NCBI GenBank assembly: GCA_017458085.1
Contig: JAFTGE010000048.1
Location: forward strand, 1 to 57,165
From: Oscillospiraceae bacterium
Lineage (GTDB): Bacteria; Bacillota; Clostridia; Oscillospirales; Oscillospiraceae
Length of the DNA stretch: 57,165 nt
Reading direction: 5' to 3'
The translations under genes and the position numbers were made by a program. This document shows positions 33,994 to 43,756 of this stretch, piece by piece. Under the pieces are notes generated by a model. That model searched no databases. It was not told the origin of the DNA and was given only the letters and a program-made list of their open reading frames with translations. Each line of letters opens with the position of its first letter. Position 1 is the stretch's first letter.

Positions 33994-35271
33994 TCAGCCG
34001 TTGGCCTTCTGGTACTGCTGGGCCCAGCCGTCAACGAAGGCGGTCTTGACCAGCTCCCAGTTGGTCGCGCTCTGGTCGGCATTGTACTGGTTCAGAGCGG
34101 AGACGAGAGCGGCACGGTAGTCGTCGACATTGGGCTGGTAGTTGGTGGCCCAATCCATGACGTAGCAGCCGTTGTTGGAGTACTCGTTGGCAGCGGCCAG
34201 GAAGCCGTTGGTGGACTCGGCAGCCTGCTTATAGGGCATGACACCGAAGGAGTCGACCAGCAGACGGGAAGCATCGGGATCGGTGACGCACCACACCAGG
34301 AAGTCCATGGTGGCCTTCTAGTCAGCCTCGGAAGCCTTGGCGTTGATGGCCCAGCAGTTCTCGGTGCCGCAGTTGAGACCGGCCTTCTCCTCGCCGGCAA
34401 CGCCGCAGTAGTAGGGGATCATGGTGGCGTTGGGAACAGCCTCGGAAACGGCGGAGTACTCCCAGGAGCCGTTGACAAAGAAGGCAGCCTTGGCAGTCTT
34501 GAACTCGTTCTCGGCATCGTGACCGCCGGTGGCCAGATCCTTGGGATCGGTCAGGCTGTTGTTGATGCACAGGTCGTACAGGTTCTTGAAGTTCTCCATG
34601 TAAGCGCCGGTGAGGGCAGGCGGGCACTCGGTCCAGCCGCCGGCGTCGCGCTCTTCATAGAAGTACTCGAGGTTGGCCATGTGGCCGGTGAAGCGCCAGG
34701 AGGAGGAGGGGTCCATGTCGGAGGAGGAGAAGGCGTCGAAGCCCAGCTCGGCAGCGCGGGCGTGGATGTCCTCGGCAACGGCCTTCAGGCCGGCGAAGTT
34801 GGTCAGCTCATCCATGGAGTGACCGGCCTTGGCGATCAGATCGGGGTTGACGATGATGCCGTAGCACTCGTAGCAGTAGCCGATGGAGACCAGCTTGCCG
34901 GTCTCGTCATAGAGGTTGTAGGCGTCGGTGTTGAGCTGCTCGGCGATGGCGGAGCCGTTGAGGTCAAGGGCGTAGTCCTTCCAATCCTTGACGCCGGCCT
35001 GGTTGCCGACGACGAACAGGGTGGGCGGGTTGCTCTTGTCCATCTCGGAGGTCAGGGTCTGGCTGTAGGTACCGGAGGCGGCGGTGACGACCTTGACGTC
35101 GACGCCCGTCTTGTCCTTGTACATTTTGGCGACCTGCTGGAGGACCTCGTCAGATTCAGGCTTGAAGTTCAGCCAATAGACGGAGCCGGTCTTGCTGCTG
35201 CCGCTGTTTCCGCAGGCGCACAGCGCGAAGACCATAACCAGCGCAAGAAGCAATGCGATGATCTTTTTCAT
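33994..35271 (-). pseudogene. Sugar-binding lipoprotein (MalE-like) with in-frame amber codon
   Basis: A 425-residue extracellular solute-binding protein if read through. It has a lipoprotein signal with lipobox LCAC (cleavage near residue 20), then the periplasmic-type fold with GSWEYSAV and WAINAKAS. Codon 318 is TAG (34318-34320), in the sequence ASEAD-stop-KATMDFL; the frame continues open to 33994. A CAG glutamine codon is the likely ancestor (one C-to-T change). Without suppression the C-terminal 107 residues are lost and a stable binding protein is unlikely. The rest of the operon is intact. Confidence 0.88.
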
Positions 35272-37845: not shown

Positions 37846-37884
37846 AAAACCCCTTAGGGAGAAACTTTCTCCCTAAGGGGTTTT
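37846..37884. terminator. Bidirectional terminator
   Basis: AAAACCCCTTAGGGAGAAA and its exact complement flank a single central base, giving a 19-bp inverted repeat between the PLP-enzyme stop and the convergent OpuC-type operon end. Confidence 0.95.
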
Positions 37885-37896
37885 GTTCGTTTGGAA

Positions 37897-38502
37897 TCAG
37901 CCCTTTTCCGCCAGGAGCAGGAGTCGGTCCATGCCGATCGCCAGCGCCGCGGACAGCAGGCTGCCCCACAGGATCTTGGCAACGTTCATGGTGCGCAGGC
38001 CGTCAAAGAGAATGCTGCCCAGCCCGCCGGCGTTGATGGATGCCGCAATGGTGGCGATGCCCACGGTGGACACCAGCGCTATGCGTAGCCCCGCGATCAG
38101 CGCCTTCTTTGCCAGGGGAATCTGCACCTTCCACAATAGCTGCATGTGCGTCATGCCCATGCCGGTGGCGGCCTCCACCACGCTGCGATCCACGCCGTCG
38201 AGCCCCGCAAGAAAATTGCGCAGCAGCAGATACTGATTGTAGATCACCAGCACAATGACGGCCGTCTTCTTGCCCAAGCCCGTCACCGGGATCAGCAGCG
38301 CCAACAGTGCAAGGCTCGGAACGGAGTAGATCACCGAGAACGCATTCAGCAGGATCCGCGACAGCGTTCTGGAATAGCTGCACGCCACCGTAAGCCCCGC
38401 CGCGATCACCAGCGAAATCAGCAGCGTGATCACCACGATCTCCAGATGCTCCAGCGTGGCGCTGAGCAGTCGGTCATAATATTTGGAAGCGTAAGCAATC
38501 AT
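37897..38502 (-). CDS. OpuC-type ABC transporter permease (second)
   Basis: A 201-residue permease with five to six helices and the EAA-type loop VVEAATGMGMTHMQLLWKVQIPLAKK (about 109-134), typical of the glycine-betaine/choline OpuCB/OpuCD group. ATG at 38502 has GAGAGG upstream and overlaps the ATPase stop by four bases; a TTG 15 bases earlier is less likely. It is the last gene of the seven-gene operon that begins with the sirtuin gene. Confidence 0.92.
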   Translation of the reverse strand: MIAYASKYYDRLLSATLEHLEIVVITLLISLVIAAGLTVACSYSRTLSRILLNAFSVIYSVPSLALLALLIPVTGLGKKTAVIVLVIYNQYLLLRNFLAGLDGVDRSVVEAATGMGMTHMQLLWKVQIPLAKKALIAGLRIALVSTVGIATIAASINAGGLGSILFDGLRTMNVAKILWGSLLSAALAIGMDRLLLLAEKG

Positions 38503-39272
38503 CGATACCTCTCCCAAAAGCGTTCCTTGGCCAGGGCAGAGTCTACCAGAGATTGAACAAAGGCATCCGCAGGCTGCCGGATGATATTCTCCGGCGTATC
38601 AAATTGCCGGATTTTTCCCTCGTTCATGATGATGACCCGGTCGCCCAGCTTGAAGGCTTCCTCAATGTCATGCGTGACGAACAGGATCGTCTTGCCCATG
38701 TTCCTATGCAGGTCCAGCAGCTCGCTCTGCAGCTTCTCCCTCGTGATGGAGTCAATCGCGCCGAAGGGCTCGTCCATCAGCATGATCTTGGGGTCAATGG
38801 CCAGAGCACGCGCCAGGCCGACCCGCTGCTGCTGGCCGCCGGAGAGCTGGCTTGGGTAGCGGTCCCGGAACTCATCGGGCTTCAGGCCCACCAGCTCCAG
38901 CAGCTCATCGACCCGTGCGGCAGTCTTCTCCTTATCCCATTTGAGGAGCTTCGGCACCGTGGCGATGTTCTCCCCCACCGTGTAGTGCGGGAACAGGCCG
39001 ATCTGCTGGATCACATAACCGATGCGGCGGCGTACCTTCACTACGTCCACGGTGGAGATATCCTCTCCGAAGAGAATGATGCTGCCGGAATCCGGCTCGT
39101 ATAGCCGGTTGATCATCTTTAAAAGCGTTGTCTTGCCGCAGCCGGAGGAGCCGAGGATCGTGACGAATTCGCCCTCGTTCACCGTCACACTCACATGATC
39201 CACCGCACTGTAGCTTGCGCCCTTGAAGGTTTTGGTGACATCTCGAAATTCAATGGCCGTGTTCATTTGCAT
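38499..39272 (-). CDS. OpuC-type ABC transporter ATPase
   Basis: A 257-residue ATPase with Walker A GSSGCGKTT (about 42-50), signature LSGGQQQR (about 142-149) and Walker B KIMLMDEPFGAID. Unlike most OpuCA proteins it lacks the C-terminal CBS pair that senses ionic strength, so osmotic gating by that route is unlikely. It overlaps the binding-protein gene by 10 bases (4 if the second ATG is used). Confidence 0.95.
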   Translation of the reverse strand: MQMNTAIEFRDVTKTFKGASYSAVDHVSVTVNEGEFVTILGSSGCGKTTLLKMINRLYEPDSGSIILFGEDISTVDVVKVRRRIGYVIQQIGLFPHYTVGENIATVPKLLKWDKEKTAARVDELLELVGLKPDEFRDRYPSQLSGGQQQRVGLARALAIDPKIMLMDEPFGAIDSITREKLQSELLDLHRNMGKTILFVTHDIEEAFKLGDRVIIMNEGKIRQFDTPENIIRQPADAFVQSLVDSALAKERFWERYR

Positions 39273-40162
39273 ACCGTCTCATAAAACTCGCGGGCTACTT
39301 CCTCATACTCCATATGGTCGATGTCCACCTTGGCATTGAGGGAGACCATGGTCTCGGTATCCAGCTTCGCGCTGACAGCGTTCAGAATCTCGGCAATTTC
39401 AGGATTGGCCTCCAGTACCTCGTTTCGCACGATGGGTGCCAAGTAGTAGGGCGGCCAGAAACCCTTATCGTCCTCGAGGTAGGTGAATTTATCCGTGTTC
39501 ACCAACTGCGCGTCAGTGGAGTAGCCGGGGCAGAGATCGGCCTCGCCCTGCTCGAGGATCTGGTACTTGATGCCGTTGTCATAGACGTTGATGGAGGCGA
39601 AGTTGAATGGACCGTAGACCTTGGTCATGCCGGGGATGCCGTCCTCACGGTACTCAAACTCGCCCTGGGAGCAGACGCAGATGTGCTCCGCCTCCCGCTG
39701 CAGGTCGGACATGGTGTAGATGTTGTACTGTTGCGCGACATCTGTGCGGATGGCGAGGCCGTTGCGGTCGTTCACATCGGTGGAGTCGAGCCAGGTGATC
39801 TGAAACTGCTCGTCATAAGCTGCCTTGACCGTGTTATAGACCTCATCGGGATCGCTGCTCATAGGCAGCTGCAAAATGGCGAGAAGACCCGTTCCGGTGT
39901 ACTCGGGGTAGAGGTCGATCTCTCCGGAGGTGATGGCGGTATGTACCACAGAACCGGCGATGTTCAGCTTGCGCTCCACGGTGTAGCCCGCGTCCTCCAG
40001 CGCCAGCGCATAGATCTCGGCGACGATCAGGTTTTCGGTGAAGTCCTTGGAGCCCACGCGGATGACGGGTCCCTGCTGTTTGGTCTGCCCGCAGGCTGCG
40101 AGAGACAGCGCCATGCTCAAAACGAGGGCAATGGCCAGAATGATGGAAATGGTTTTCTTCAT
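39263..40162 (-). CDS. OpuC-type substrate-binding lipoprotein
   Basis: A 299-residue lipoprotein with lipobox SLAAC (Cys near 24). The mature part starts IRVGSKDFTENLIVAEIYALAL and has the hallmark IDLYPEYTGTGLL, both of the OpuAC/OpuCC fold that binds quaternary amines through aromatic residues. Candidate ligands are betaine, choline, carnitine or ergothioneine-like betaines; the sequence does not settle which. It lies 13 bases after the first permease. Confidence 0.93.
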   Translation of the reverse strand: MKKTISIILAIALVLSMALSLAACGQTKQQGPVIRVGSKDFTENLIVAEIYALALEDAGYTVERKLNIAGSVVHTAITSGEIDLYPEYTGTGLLAILQLPMSSDPDEVYNTVKAAYDEQFQITWLDSTDVNDRNGLAIRTDVAQQYNIYTMSDLQREAEHICVCSQGEFEYREDGIPGMTKVYGPFNFASINVYDNGIKYQILEQGEADLCPGYSTDAQLVNTDKFTYLEDDKGFWPPYYLAPIVRNEVLEANPEIAEILNAVSAKLDTETMVSLNAKVDIDHMEYEEVAREFYETVCK

Positions 40163-40175
40163 GTGAATCGCTCCT

Positions 40176-40814
40176 TTATACGGTTCTATGTTTCATAGTG
40201 GATTTTTCTACGATGGCAAAGATTAGTCCGGTCAGCAGAGAGAGCAGCGCAACGGACACGCCGCCGATCAGCAGCAGCTCGGTCTTGAAGAGGCCGATGC
40301 CAGCAAAGATGATATCCCCCAAGCCGCCCGCGCCGATCTTGGAGGCAATCGTCGCGCTGGCGACGATCTCCACCGCCGCGGTTTTGATCCCGGTCAGGAT
40401 CATCGGCATGGCCAGCGGAAAGCGGACCTTTGTCCAGACCTGCGTGGGATCCATGCCCACGCCCTCCGCCGTTTCCAGCATGAAGGGCGGCACGCCCTCC
40501 AGACCGGCCACGGTGTTCATCAAAATTGGCGGCACGGCCAGCAACACCAGCGCTACTACAGCGGGTGCGGTGCCAGTTCCCATGATGGGAACCATCAAAA
40601 GCAAGATGGCAAGGCTGGGGATCACGCGCAAAAGGCTGAACAGACCGGTGATGTACTTCTGCGCTTTCTTCCAGCGCACACAGAGGAAGCCAGCCGGAAT
40701 GCCGATCAGCACCGCGATCACCAGAGCGATCAAGCTGATGCGGATATGAGCTGTCAGCATGCCCCAGAAGCGGCCGCTGTTTTCTTGAAAGTAGTTCAGG
40801 ATCAGCGCCATCAT
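40176..40814 (-). CDS. OpuC-type ABC transporter permease (first)
   Basis: A 212-residue permease with HIRISLIALVIAVLIGIPAGFLCVRW as first helix region and the EAA-type loop LETAEGVGMDPTQVWTKVRFPLAMP (about 113-137). It is a paralog of the permease at 37.9 kb and forms the heterodimeric channel with it. The start overlaps the upstream flavoprotein-ferredoxin gene by four bases, tying the transporter to the redox genes. Confidence 0.93.
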   Translation of the reverse strand: MMALILNYFQENSGRFWGMLTAHIRISLIALVIAVLIGIPAGFLCVRWKKAQKYITGLFSLLRVIPSLAILLLMVPIMGTGTAPAVVALVLLAVPPILMNTVAGLEGVPPFMLETAEGVGMDPTQVWTKVRFPLAMPMILTGIKTAAVEIVASATIASKIGAGGLGDIIFAGIGLFKTELLLIGGVSVALLSLLTGLIFAIVEKSTMKHRTV

Positions 40815-41434
40815 GAGGCGTCTCCCTCGCCCCGCCGCACGATGGCCTGCACGGGGCAGTTCTCTTCGCAGAGCCCGCAGTGCAGGCAGTTGCGCTGCCG
40901 GATCACAAACGGCGTCCCCTCGTCAATAGCCTGCTGGGGGCAATTCGCGGCGCAGGTGCCGCAGCCGATGCAGGTGTCCGCGATGAAAAAGCCCTTCTTT
41001 TCCGGCTTGGCATCCCCGAAAGAAAAGCACTCGCGCTCAATGGGGCTGACGTTCAGATCAAAACACTCCAACTGCCCTTCGTCGATGCAGAAGGGATCGA
41101 GGATGTAGCGGCTCTCGCCGGGATACACGCCGTTCATAGAGGGATTAGCCTCGAAAATGCGGTCGATCCATACTTTTTGATCGGAGAGCTTTTTCGCCTT
41201 TCCGTTTAGGCGGATCATTTTGTAGTCCCGGGTCAGTCCGGTCACGGCTATATCGCCCGAGGCCATGAGCTGGGCGTAGAAATCCTTTCCCCGGCCGGTG
41301 CAAAAATAGAGCTTTCCTTCCTCTACCAGCATTACGTCGATGATCCTGGCCTGGGGTTTCCCGTTGGCCGAGACCGTGGAAAAGGTCACGTCCCGCAGCT
41401 CCCGCAGCTTGTTCAGGCAATCCTGTGCGTTCAT
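40811..41434 (-). CDS. PPOX-like flavoprotein fused to a 2[4Fe-4S] ferredoxin
   Basis: A 207-residue fusion. The N-terminal 120 residues have the split-barrel FMN-binding fold of the pyridoxamine 5'-phosphate oxidase-like group (VTFSTVSANGKPQARIIDVMLVEEGKLYFCTGRGKDFYAQL). The C-terminal part (about 150-198) has two ferredoxin clusters, CIGCGTCAANCP and CLHCGLCEENCP. It probably moves electrons between ferredoxin-type carriers and a flavin substrate. It overlaps genes on both sides by four bases. Confidence 0.92.
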   Translation of the reverse strand: MNAQDCLNKLRELRDVTFSTVSANGKPQARIIDVMLVEEGKLYFCTGRGKDFYAQLMASGDIAVTGLTRDYKMIRLNGKAKKLSDQKVWIDRIFEANPSMNGVYPGESRYILDPFCIDEGQLECFDLNVSPIERECFSFGDAKPEKKGFFIADTCIGCGTCAANCPQQAIDEGTPFVIRQRNCLHCGLCEENCPVQAIVRRGEGDAS

Positions 41435-42306
41435 TTCGATTCCTCCATTTCAAAGCGCAGGCGGTGGATCCTTGCTTCCTCTACGCCTCTCTGCGTGCCT
41501 CTTGCATAGCGGATCTCCGGCCAGCCGAAGCCCAGCATCACGCCAATATAGTGATCCTCCGGGATTTGCAGCAGAGCACGGATGCGCGGCATGGTGTTCA
41601 GCACGTCCTTCGGGAAGGTCATCATCACGCAGCCCAGCCCCCTTGACGCGCAGAGCAGTTCAAAGTAAGCTGCGGCGACCATCACGTCCTCCACCGGTTC
41701 TCCCCTGCCCAGCGGAGCATGGGGAATGAGCAAATACGGCGCGCCACAAAACAGCATGTCCGGGCGCACGGTCTTTTCCCAGTGCTTCATGTCTTCATAG
41801 GACGCCCTGTCAAAGCCCGCAGGATAGACGCCCTCCGCCGCGAGGCGTTCCATCTCCCCATAGGCGAGGGTGCGGAAGCGTTCCATCTGCGTTCGGTCGT
41901 CAATGAGCGTGAAAGCCACCTGCTGCTTGTTGCCGCCGTTGGGGGCATTGCCCAGCATTTGGAGCATGGCGTTGATCAGCTCCGGAGCCACATCCTTTTT
42001 CAGAAAGCGGCGGCAGGAGTGGCGGTTCATGATCAGCGCGTCCAGCACCGGCGCGGCAGTGTCCGCCTTTATGGGCGGCAGGCTGTTCTCCGGCGACTTG
42101 CCGAAGATGCTGATCGCGCCCTTGGGACACACCGCCAGGCAGTGCTCACACTTCCAGCAGCCGTTCCAGCCAAAGCCGTCTATGGGCTGCATCTCGGCCT
42201 TGCGCTGGTCATTCACACGTAGAATTCCGCCGGGGCAGACCTTCATGCACAGACCGCAACCGATGCAGCGGCTCTCGTCAACGTAAAACTGCGCAATATT
42301 GTTCAT
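41431..42306 (-). CDS. Nitroreductase with N-terminal ferredoxin domain
   Basis: A 291-residue fusion. Residues 10-65 carry two [4Fe-4S] motifs, CIGCGLCMKVCP and CWKCEHCLAVCP. Residues 85-275 are a nitroreductase FMN domain with the entry motif IMNRHSCRRF and GLGCVMMTFP. Such enzymes reduce nitro, quinone or enone substrates with ferredoxin electrons in anaerobes. The ATG overlaps the sirtuin stop by four bases. Confidence 0.93.
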   Translation of the reverse strand: MNNIAQFYVDESRCIGCGLCMKVCPGGILRVNDQRKAEMQPIDGFGWNGCWKCEHCLAVCPKGAISIFGKSPENSLPPIKADTAAPVLDALIMNRHSCRRFLKKDVAPELINAMLQMLGNAPNGGNKQQVAFTLIDDRTQMERFRTLAYGEMERLAAEGVYPAGFDRASYEDMKHWEKTVRPDMLFCGAPYLLIPHAPLGRGEPVEDVMVAAAYFELLCASRGLGCVMMTFPKDVLNTMPRIRALLQIPEDHYIGVMLGFGWPEIRYARGTQRGVEEARIHRLRFEMEESK

Positions 42307-43268
42307 GACAGCGCCCTTGTTTCCCTGAGTCCTGCGGCAATATCCGAAATACTCTCGGCCATGTCGGCGTTGATACCGATGGCGCGCTCGCCCAGACTCG
42401 CCGGAACGATAGCCTTGCTGCGGCTGAGGCGGATGAGGGTGATGTTCTCGTGCTCCCGCGTCAGCTTTTCAAAGGGGAAACGGATTATGGTCGGGGTGTT
42501 AAAGCCGACCCCCAGCTCCAGCAGCACCGTCTTCCCGTTTACACATTCCGACAGGAAGCGGCTGAAGCGATCCTCGGCGGCATGCCAGTTCTCGTCTTCA
42601 ACGAAAAAGTTATCACAGCGCAGGTTCATCGCCATCGGCCCGCCGCAGACCGGACACTTGGGAACCAGCTCTGTTGGGATTCGCCCGTCCTTCCGGGCAA
42701 GCTCCATTTCGCGGAAGCGCTCGACCGCATCGTAGGTCTTCGGATGGCACCCGCGCTGGCACTGGATCAGGTTGTAGCTGCCCTGGGTGGCAAAGATCTG
42801 CTCGGTCGGCAGTCCCGCCTTGTCGAACTGGTGGTCGGCATTGGTACTCAGCAGGAACAGCTTCTTCCCTTTTAACGCGTCCAGCAGCGTCCTGTGCAGC
42901 GGCGTCACATCCAGGTCGGCCCCCGCAATCAGCGCCAGATGGGACCACAGCCCCCAGCGGCTCTCCTCGTCGGGGAAGGGATAAAAGCCCGCGGAATACA
43001 TGTCCTGCATATAGGGACCCTTGCCATAGATTTTTTGGAATTCGGCAAAGTTTTCCTCAAAGAAGCTTCCGCCGTATTCAGCCCCGGCCGCGGCGCTCAT
43101 ACCCGCGCCCGCGCCGAGCATGACATAGTCCGCCTCCCGAATGCGTCTGACGGCCTCCTTGATCTGTGCGGCATAGGGCGTGTCCTGCACAATATAATCC
43201 CGCGCGTAGCTGCCGCACAGGAAATTTTCAAACGTCATTTTCTTTTTGACAGAGCGGTCAAATGTCAT
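42303..43268 (-). CDS. Class M sirtuin (SirTM-like), probable ADP-ribosyltransferase
   Basis: A 321-residue Sir2-fold protein. NAD-binding GAGAGMSAAAG lies at 52-62. STNADHQF (Asn143) and ATQGSYN (Gln162) stand where classical sirtuins have NxD and the catalytic His; loss of that His, plus CQRGC...CPVCG zinc ligands (170, 174, 205, 208) and LLELGVGFNTPTIIRFPF, are the marks of SirTM proteins. Known SirTMs ADP-ribosylate a lipoylated GcvH-like protein encoded beside them with a macrodomain. Neither partner is adjacent here. AAGGAGG precedes the ATG by 9 bases. It heads the operon and is divergent from hxlR. Confidence 0.87.
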   Translation of the reverse strand: MTFDRSVKKKMTFENFLCGSYARDYIVQDTPYAAQIKEAVRRIREADYVMLGAGAGMSAAAGAEYGGSFFEENFAEFQKIYGKGPYMQDMYSAGFYPFPDEESRWGLWSHLALIAGADLDVTPLHRTLLDALKGKKLFLLSTNADHQFDKAGLPTEQIFATQGSYNLIQCQRGCHPKTYDAVERFREMELARKDGRIPTELVPKCPVCGGPMAMNLRCDNFFVEDENWHAAEDRFSRFLSECVNGKTVLLELGVGFNTPTIIRFPFEKLTREHENITLIRLSRSKAIVPASLGERAIGINADMAESISDIAAGLRETRALS

Positions 43269-43300
43269 GATTTCTTCCCTCCTTGGGTTTTGCTTCTTTT

Positions 43301-43329
43301 ATTATACAGATTGGAGACATGCTCCGCAA
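43301..43329 (-). promoter_or_regulatory. Promoter of the sirtuin operon
   Basis: On the minus strand TTGCGG (43324-43329) and TATAAT (43301-43306) have a 17-base spacer, about 33 bases upstream of the sirtuin ATG. Confidence 0.75.
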
Positions 43330-43351
43330 GCACGCACCTTTTTGTAACCCC

Positions 43352-43380
43352 TTGCACCGGGACCTTTCCTGCTGTATAAT
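43352..43380 (+). promoter_or_regulatory. hxlR promoter
   Basis: TTGCAC (43352-43357) and TATAAT (43375-43380) are 17 bases apart. Its -35 lies only 22 bases from the -35 of the divergent sirtuin promoter, so one bound regulator could act on both. Confidence 0.8.
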
Positions 43381-43411
43381 TCCGGTAAAGAGAAAACAAC
43401 GGAGGCGCGTT

Positions 43412-43756
43412 ATGAGAACCAAAGCCGATATCCTCCCCGAATGCCCGGTGGCAACGACCGTCGCCTTGATCGGCAGCAAGTGGAAGCTGCTCATCATGCG
43501 GAATCTGATGTCGCGTCCCTGGCGCTTTAATGAGCTGCTCAAGAGCATCGACGGCATCAGTCAAAAGGTGCTGACCGATTCCCTGCGTTCCATGGAGGCT
43601 GACGGGATCGTCGCCCGCACCGTGTATGACGAGGTGCCGCCCCGGGTGGAATACTCCCTGACAGAGCTTGGCCAATCCATGCAGCCCATCATCAAATCCA
43701 TGGAGGTCTGGGGCACCGCCTACAAAGAACGCTTGCAGTCTGCGGGCGAGGTGTGA
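43412..43756 (+). CDS. HxlR-family transcriptional regulator
   Basis: A 114-residue winged-helix regulator of the HxlR/MarR-like type. It has the characteristic N-terminal CPVATTVALIGSKWKLLIMRNLM (Cys near residue 11), GISQKVLTDSLRSMEADGIV recognition region, and VEYSLTELGQSM wing. Many HxlR proteins use the N-terminal Cys to sense quinones, diamide or hypochlorite. GGAGG precedes the ATG at 43412. Divergence from the sirtuin-redox operon suggests that it controls it. Confidence 0.92.
   Translation: MRTKADILPECPVATTVALIGSKWKLLIMRNLMSRPWRFNELLKSIDGISQKVLTDSLRSMEADGIVARTVYDEVPPRVEYSLTELGQSMQPIIKSMEVWGTAYKERLQSAGEV

Follow-up and report, generated by a model that had tools for sequence, protein, structure and literature searches.

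The window analysed here is a stretch of 57,165 nucleotides from an uncultured gut bacterium of Oscillospiraceae type (GCA_017458085.1, contig JAFTGE010000048.1), and its reverse strand carries a seven-gene operon that begins with a class M sirtuin (SirTM), continues with two iron-sulfur flavoenzymes, a ferredoxin-domain nitroreductase (Fd-nitroreductase) and a PPOX-ferredoxin (PPOX-Fd), and ends with the genes of an ABC importer. We see about an even chance that this is a stress-response operon under an HxlR-type thiol sensor, in which SirTM gates an iron-sulfur flavoenzyme of the regulon. The sirtuin is the same enzyme as that already known; its partner set and its link with a regulator are new, and no GcvH was found. 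Across related loci, PPOX-Fd, the macrodomain and HxlR are the strong conserved partners of SirTM, and within the operon the importer is conserved least and PPOX-Fd is the most informative member. The operon points to possible SirTM targets in bacteria without the only known target of this enzyme.

In the scheme that we prefer, the HxlR-type thiol sensor would act at an operator at 43332-43348 upon oxidants or electrophiles, so that the operon is released. Fd-nitroreductase and PPOX-Fd, as flavin/4Fe-4S enzymes, would use electrons at the ferredoxin level for the detoxifying reduction of a harmful compound, and the importer would supply a small zwitterion, either protective or reducible. SirTM would mono-ADP-ribosylate a protein of the regulon, most likely PPOX-Fd or Fd-nitroreductase, and thereby gate it. 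The ADP-ribose mark would be taken off by a zinc macrodomain, whose gene lies next to the operon in some relatives and at other sites in this genome. Such reversible ADP-ribosylation is modelled on the proposal made for GcvH-L (Rack et al. 2015, PMC4518038). We infer all the biochemistry of the scheme, that is, the stress signal, the transferase activity, the target and the ligand.

The operon and its sirtuin

The genes of the operon, in order from SirTM, are as follows.

42303..43268, reverse strand: class M sirtuin (SirTM), P0001, 321 aa, by PDB match and active-site residues
41431..42306, reverse strand: Fd-nitroreductase, 291 aa, Pfam Nitroreductase and Fer4 domains
40811..41434, reverse strand: PPOX-Fd, P0003, 207 aa, PNPOx_N-type domain and two 4Fe-4S motifs (Fer4)
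40176..40814, reverse strand: ABC permease A, ProW-like, Pfam BPD_transp_1
39263..40162, reverse strand: substrate-binding protein P0005, OpuAC family by Pfam, lipoprotein-type signal
38499..39272, reverse strand: ABC ATPase, ProV-like, Pfam ABC_tran
37897..38502, reverse strand: ABC permease B, BPD_transp_1, start taken at the ATG that gives a 4-base overlap with the end of the ATPase gene

Successive genes overlap by 4, 4 and 4 bases, are then separated by a gap of 13, and overlap again by 10 and 4. An original prediction made from the letters of the stretch had given the seven genes, their order and every overlap and gap, all of which proved exact on re-checking. It had also named a class M sirtuin, redox enzymes with ferredoxin domains and a quaternary-amine-type importer, and each of these was borne out: the sirtuin matches Streptococcus pyogenes SirTM and has the active-site residues, Pfam finds Nitroreductase with Fer4 and PNPOx_N with Fer4 in the two enzymes, and OpuAC, two BPD_transp_1 and ABC_tran in the transporter. 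A binding protein of the OpuAC family with permeases and an ATPase is the gene set of an OpuB/OpuC-type importer; P0005 is the sole match of its kind in its own genome. A named metagenome-assembled genome (MAG; locus L032) and a second genus (L109, genome G079) likewise carry SirTM, Fd-nitroreductase and a complete transporter, with no P0003-type PPOX-Fd adjoining, and L040 has the same set, its nitroreductase and first permease being detected by tblastn only. The arrangement is therefore no accident of assembly.

P0001 matched no Pfam model at E 0.01 and, among NCBIfam models, a single sirtuin model with a score far under its cut-off. By phmmer it matched S. pyogenes SirTM (PDB 5a3a) with E 1.7e-46 and, with E 9.6e-28, the second half of a longer chain, 8rsn, labelled ADP-ribose 1''-phosphate phosphatase. 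Asn143, Gln162 and Arg217 of P0001 correspond to Asn118, Gln137 and Arg192 of S. pyogenes SirTM, which are essential in that enzyme (Rack et al. 2015, PMC4518038). Gln162-Gly163 (QG) stands where other sirtuins have a catalytic HG, and the GVGx[NT]TP motif reads GVGFNTP. In an alignment of 93 sequences, the window's included, the Asn and the Arg are present in 93/93 and the Gln in 92/93 (one X), and the Thr of GxGxNTP is found in 92. On these residues, the SirTM of the operon is predicted to be an ADP-ribosyltransferase with an intact active site. No PADLOC defence family matched P0001 at E 0.01. A role in anti-phage defence was rejected, since the sirtuin has no PADLOC match and the weak BrxP matches of the flavoenzymes are confined to their ferredoxin parts.

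Conserved partners and a probable shared regulator

PPOX-Fd and SirTM often occur together. In a family sample of 200 genomes, PPOX-Fd was found in 24 (above 100 bits, a cut-off set after viewing the lists, also for the binding protein; two of the 24 matches, in G077 and G167, are partial), and SirTM was present in 21 of these 24 and in 44 of the remaining 176 (p 4e-9). An order sample of 394 genomes, with PPOX-Fd counted at E 1e-25 or better by our own choice, contained PPOX-Fd in 38, SirTM in 93 and both in 35 (Fisher p 1.7e-21), and in 30 of these 35 the two genes are at most 5 kb apart. Of the 31 PPOX-Fd genomes of the order sample that fall outside the family, 28 have SirTM, and the genes are linked in 25 of the 28. 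These p-values are too favourable, since six of the 38 order-sample PPOX-Fd genomes recur in the family sample and relatedness makes the genomes dependent on one another; the 5-kb linkage is a stronger argument than co-occurrence. With the shared motif described below, the pairing in 35 of 38 genomes narrows the search to a few candidate targets and a regulator, so that the question of the SirTM target can be tested directly with a few purified proteins.

A scan of contigs of named genomes gave 69 further SirTM loci, mostly in MAGs labelled Lachnospiraceae, Oscillospiraceae/Ruminococcaceae or Clostridia, with three in Methanobrevibacter. Neighbours were clustered for the 70 loci, window included, over up to 8 kb on each side (several ended by contig edges), and the counts, coming from simple calling of open reading frames (ORFs), are lower bounds: a macrodomain recurs in at least 46 loci, HxlR in at least 24, PPOX-Fd in at least 20, an Rrf2 regulator in at least 12, DUF1848 in at least 11 and radical SAM/SPASM in at least eight. 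In a common layout, HxlR faces a radical SAM gene, a nitroreductase or alcohol dehydrogenase, PPOX-Fd, a macrodomain and SirTM. A cultured commensal, Frisingicoccus caecimuris DSM 28559 (L055), has such a locus, with HxlR, radical SAM, nitroreductase, PPOX-Fd, macrodomain and SirTM genes. In the SirTM tree, from which five duplicate loci were dropped and sirtuin pieces below 240 aa excluded, the window's sirtuin falls in a clade of 22 rows with a support of 98, in which SirTM is often the first gene and adjoins HxlR. Some relatives encode, ahead of Fd-nitroreductase, a protein of 137-140 aa (c15) that has no Pfam match.

The regulator, the elements around it and the far end of the operon are the following.

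43412..43756, forward strand: divergent HxlR/DUF24-type regulator, 114 aa, N-terminal Cys11 (ECPVATTV), PF01638 with E 5.1e-32
43332..43348, forward strand: putative HxlR operator ACGCACCTTTTTGTAAC, 17 bases, between the divergent promoter-like sequences of HxlR and SirTM
43301..43329, reverse strand: possible promoter of the SirTM operon, TTGCGG, 17 bases, TATAAT, by eye
43352..43380, forward strand: possible HxlR promoter, TTGCAC, 17 bases, TATAAT, by eye
37846..37884, no strand assigned: perfect inverted repeat with A and T runs at its ends, by eye

The inverted repeat is likely a terminator common to the operon and a convergent gene of Cys/Met metabolism. The original prediction had named neither the HxlR gene nor the motif nor this repeat. 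A consensus scan of 43200-43480 reported no promoter and no terminator, although TATAAT is visible on both strands.

Of 31 related HxlR genes sharing 55% identity or more, 24 have the longer form of the motif, AAGTACGCACCTTTTTGTAAC, upstream of them when up to 6 mismatches in 21 are allowed, a cut-off set after viewing the lists; in a random control, in which the best of up to 30 windows per locus was taken, 2 of 31 loci passed. This count leaves out 27 loci that were judged by hand to duplicate others or to be small parts of them. In the genome of the window, the three motif matches with at most two mismatches coincide exactly with its three SirTM loci (the window and contigs C109 and C116). 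The first of the other two (C109 34-4711) is a paralogous operon, with a SirTM 83% identical to the window's, genes for a DUF1848-like protein, a PPOX-like protein with a lipoprotein-type signal, a short-chain dehydrogenase, c15 (137 aa) and Fd-nitroreductase, and, within it, the 17-base motif again in a second copy free of mismatches. At C116 the motif is flanked on one side by an HxlR gene (75% identity with that of the window) and on the other by a row of radical SAM, alcohol dehydrogenase, Fd-nitroreductase, PCC-domain protein, nitroreductase, macrodomain and SirTM genes, without PPOX-Fd. The same regulator family includes HypR, YodB and CatR, which are sensors of HOCl, quinones and diamide (PMC6943732), and the HxlR-type protein is probably the stress-sensor switch of the operon, common to its relatives.

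Distribution and possible ligands of the importer

The importer follows another pattern. Its binding protein (above 100 bits) occurs in 24 of the 200 family genomes and shows no association with SirTM (8/24 vs 57/176, p 1.0), while it is associated with PPOX-Fd (8/24 vs 16/176, p 0.003), and of the eight genomes that have the two, the window's included, six carry them in one gene row. Across genomes, SirTM is linked with PPOX-Fd and not with the binding protein. A neighbourhood association of SirTM with OpuC genes is seen as linkage in two distant SirTM lineages, with genome-wide co-occurrence at chance. On the SirTM tree this linkage takes at least three changes, gains and/or losses, on the starred branches. 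Within the window's clade the transporter is complete in the window, L032, L040 and L109 (the second genus), and partial, with SirTM kept, in L037 (two adjoining permease genes), L042 (one) and L033 (a fragment).

These data would suit a plainer explanation, to which we give somewhat less than even weight: in one lineage, insertion placed an ordinary compatible-solute importer behind SirTM and Fd-nitroreductase, and it shares their promoter with no mechanistic link to the sirtuin. The lack of association with SirTM across 200 genomes and the partial deletions in L033, L037 and L042 speak for it, as do the solved structures nearest to P0005 in the PDB, namely engineered sensors for nicotine and acetylcholine and, after these, binders of osmoprotectants, choline and ergothioneine. 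Against simple insertion stands the recurrence of PPOX-Fd with permease, binding protein and ATPase in eight loci outside the window's clade (L164-L168, L199-L201), the permease being either separate or fused to the binding domain. In five of the eight the regulator or its motif comes along: HxlR stands alongside the row in L164, L166, L168 and L201, and in L200 the motif lies upstream of PPOX-Fd with 2 of 21 mismatches; at the rows of L165, L167 and L199 neither HxlR nor the motif was seen. L164 (G136) repeats the window's order, Fd-nitroreductase, PPOX-Fd, fused permease-binding protein and ATPase, with another subtype of binding protein. L168 (G023) has HxlR facing PPOX-Fd (its frame with one in-frame stop in the assembly), permease, binding protein, ATPase, flavin reductase, a phosphoesterase-like gene, a macrodomain and SirTM; the last two are on the same strand as the row, with an opposite-strand ORF between them, and this SirTM belongs to a clade distant from the window's. 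Given the losses in relatives and the recurrence beside PPOX-Fd, the transporter looks like a dispensable accessory of PPOX-Fd.

The binding pocket also seems to depart from that of an ordinary solute binder. The cage of the pneumococcal ergothioneine binder EgtUC is formed by Phe293, Tyr341, Tyr419 and Tyr443, with Asn339, and its specificity is marked by Gly244 and a Tyr-to-Phe switch at Phe293 (PMC9732360). When residues were mapped by motif and an AfProX alignment, not on an alignment with EgtUC, P0005 had Phe for Gly244, Tyr for Phe293, Asn for Tyr341 and Asp for Asn339, so that three of the four aromatic cage positions are kept and the fourth is Asn; the four-aromatic cage for quaternary amines is incomplete. 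The orthologue in G079 has Gln for Tyr341. Asn and Gln at this Tyr, unlike the betaine-binder cage as described, tell against an ordinary compatible-solute importer, and judged by these residues both ordinary betaine and ergothioneine seem less likely ligands than the family name suggests.

The original prediction had proposed that a betaine-like thione such as ergothioneine is imported and reduced by the flavoenzymes. EgtUC chains do match P0005 with E about 1e-37, and the binding proteins of the sister loci L164 and L168 have 8dp6 as their best PDB match, presumably the H. pylori ergothioneine binder. P0005 is a different subtype from the sister-locus proteins (33-40% identity for seven of eight), it lacks both pneumococcal determinants, Gly244 and Phe293, and has Asn at one cage Tyr by the motif mapping, and we know of no thione-converting enzyme family encoded in the operon. 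Some related transporters, e.g., that of H. pylori, import ergothioneine at lower affinity (PMC9732360), so the missing marks are no proof of absence. Ergothioneine import by P0005 was accordingly given low weight, and the proposal as a whole appears very improbable.

Candidate targets of SirTM and known systems

GcvH-L is the only known target of SirTM, and the targets of other SirTM/zinc-macrodomain systems are elusive (PMC11490716). No GcvH match was found in the genome of the window, which is 93.5% complete, nor in 48 of the 64 SirTM genomes of the family; the other 16 have a match, 11 of them strong and five short and weak (E above 1e-5). The test covered 64 of 65 SirTM genomes, G116 being left out for its marginal SirTM match (E 5.9e-4). 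Pfam found neither GcvH-L nor LplA2 among the seven operon genes. Since GcvH went undetected in this genome and in most SirTM genomes of the family that were examined, SirTM probably acts on another target here.

The operon of the window has no adjoining macrodomain gene. In the fetched stretches of its 22-row clade a macrodomain occurs in eight loci, convergent in L037, L040, L041, L042, L044 and L045 and on the same strand in L046 and L048; in L037, L040 and L042 it lies, convergently, directly behind the transporter genes or their remnants. The genome of the window has five macrodomain matches, one beside the SirTM of C116 and two at contig ends (C71 and C93), and the C71 macrodomain is 90% identical over the overlap to that of L041. 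One C71 macrodomain could be the missing eraser of the window operon. The usual SirTM-operon partners had been predicted to be absent; this agrees with the lack of a GcvH match and with an operon free of macrodomain genes, and it does not extend to the genome, where macrodomain and lipoate ligase-like genes lie elsewhere, or to the three relatives with a convergent macrodomain behind the transporter. At the contig end, C71 2-1460 (L111) holds two macrodomain ORFs with a helix-turn-helix-like gene between them.

Several observations weigh against a GcvH-independent switch under a thiol sensor. The motif is missing at the cut-off from 7 of the 31 HxlR-upstream regions and from eight of nine more distant HxlR genes (below 55% identity, scored separately; two of the nine are one genome twice), one of the nine having it. 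Among eight genomes scanned, the motif gave eight matches and a reversed-pattern control four, one of these in the window's own genome, and no match was found in G004 and G174, of the same genus, or in G023; the case for an operator therefore rests on location rather than number. In HxlR proper, positive regulation is connected with formaldehyde, so the signal for the operon could be aldehydes. In the nearest relatives L032, L040 and L109 the nitroreductase is followed by a permease and PPOX-Fd is not beside SirTM, hence PPOX-Fd is not obligatory in the window's clade. Finally, a lipoate ligase-like gene is present elsewhere in the genome (C123:42424), which makes a lipoylated target other than GcvH possible.

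This last gene favours a further alternative, in which SirTM, as in the known systems, still acts on a lipoylated protein at another place in the cell, such as an E2 or a different lipoyl domain, and the operon neighbours are simply co-regulated; the activity of the characterised SirTM depends on lipoylation (PMC4518038). We regard this alternative as unlikely. The absence of GcvH matches set out above counts against it, and no LplA/GcvH-L pair was recognised beside SirTM in the loci viewed, in which those families and other lipoyl domains were not searched.

The reading of an HxlR-controlled stress operon can be compared with several described systems. The extended SirTM operon of S. aureus and S. 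pyogenes comprises GcvH-L, a macrodomain, SirTM, LplA2 and OYE and LLM flavoenzymes (PMC4518038). It has in common with the window the active-site residues, associated flavin oxidoreductases, a proposed role in redox stress and a macrodomain eraser, here beside the operon in some relatives only. Unlike it, the window operon contains no GcvH-L, LplA2 or macrodomain, has Fd-nitroreductase and PPOX-Fd instead of OYE and LLM, and adds a divergent HxlR with its motif and an ABC importer. As in the minimal pairs of zinc macrodomain and SirTM (PMC11490716), the macrodomain is the commonest neighbour of this SirTM branch, which differs by its HxlR-linked set of radical SAM, nitroreductase and PPOX-Fd genes and, in the window's copy, by having no adjoining macrodomain. 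The B. subtilis HypR, YodB and CatR regulons resemble the locus in that an HxlR/DUF24 regulator with an N-terminal Cys controls nitroreductase-type flavoenzymes, whereas the set probably regulated in the window includes a class M sirtuin, iron-sulfur flavoenzymes and a transporter (PMC6943732). With OpuB/OpuC and EgtU the importer has in common an OpuAC-family binding protein, two permeases and an ATPase; it differs from them in the Tyr-to-Asn change in the cage and in lacking the pneumococcal ergothioneine determinants, and its binding protein is separate, in contrast to the fused EgtUBC (PMC9732360).

In the passages seen of the literature on HxlR and sirtuins (Treponema denticola), no such operon is described. 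Titles and beginnings of abstracts, with subscription journals largely outside the search, contained no published link of sirtuin, nitroreductase, ferredoxin and transporter; nor did those on macrodomain and sirtuin together with radical SAM, or those of the SirTM literature, contain a link of this kind. A broader and more tentative proposal, on the doubtful side in our estimate, is that gut Clostridia use SirTM and the zinc macrodomain as an ADP-ribosylation switch, independent of lipoate, on an iron-sulfur flavoprotein (PPOX-Fd or its partner Fd-nitroreductase) under an HxlR thiol sensor, to which the window's version adds a dedicated importer. If this were true, ADP-ribosylation would control how many electrons reach a small molecule taken up by that importer.

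Some further loci are recorded here. A DUF1848 protein is encoded directly behind SirTM, with an overlap of a few bases, in L035, L043, L046, L047, L048 and others, and it is a possible further partner of SirTM. SirTM-like genes, each about 30% identical to P0001, stand three in tandem in G182:C22:4285-6849 and G470:C29:1727-4302, and pairs occur in G122, G143, G472 and G348. In three Methanobrevibacter MAGs (L095-L097) a macrodomain-SirTM pair is present, beside a divergent HxlR-like gene in L095 and L096, and the association of HxlR with this pair thus reaches archaea. Within the window, a solute-binding-protein-like gene at 33994-35271 on the reverse strand is apparently in two frames by eye (34318-35271 and 33994-34308), which seems to be decay or a sequence error.

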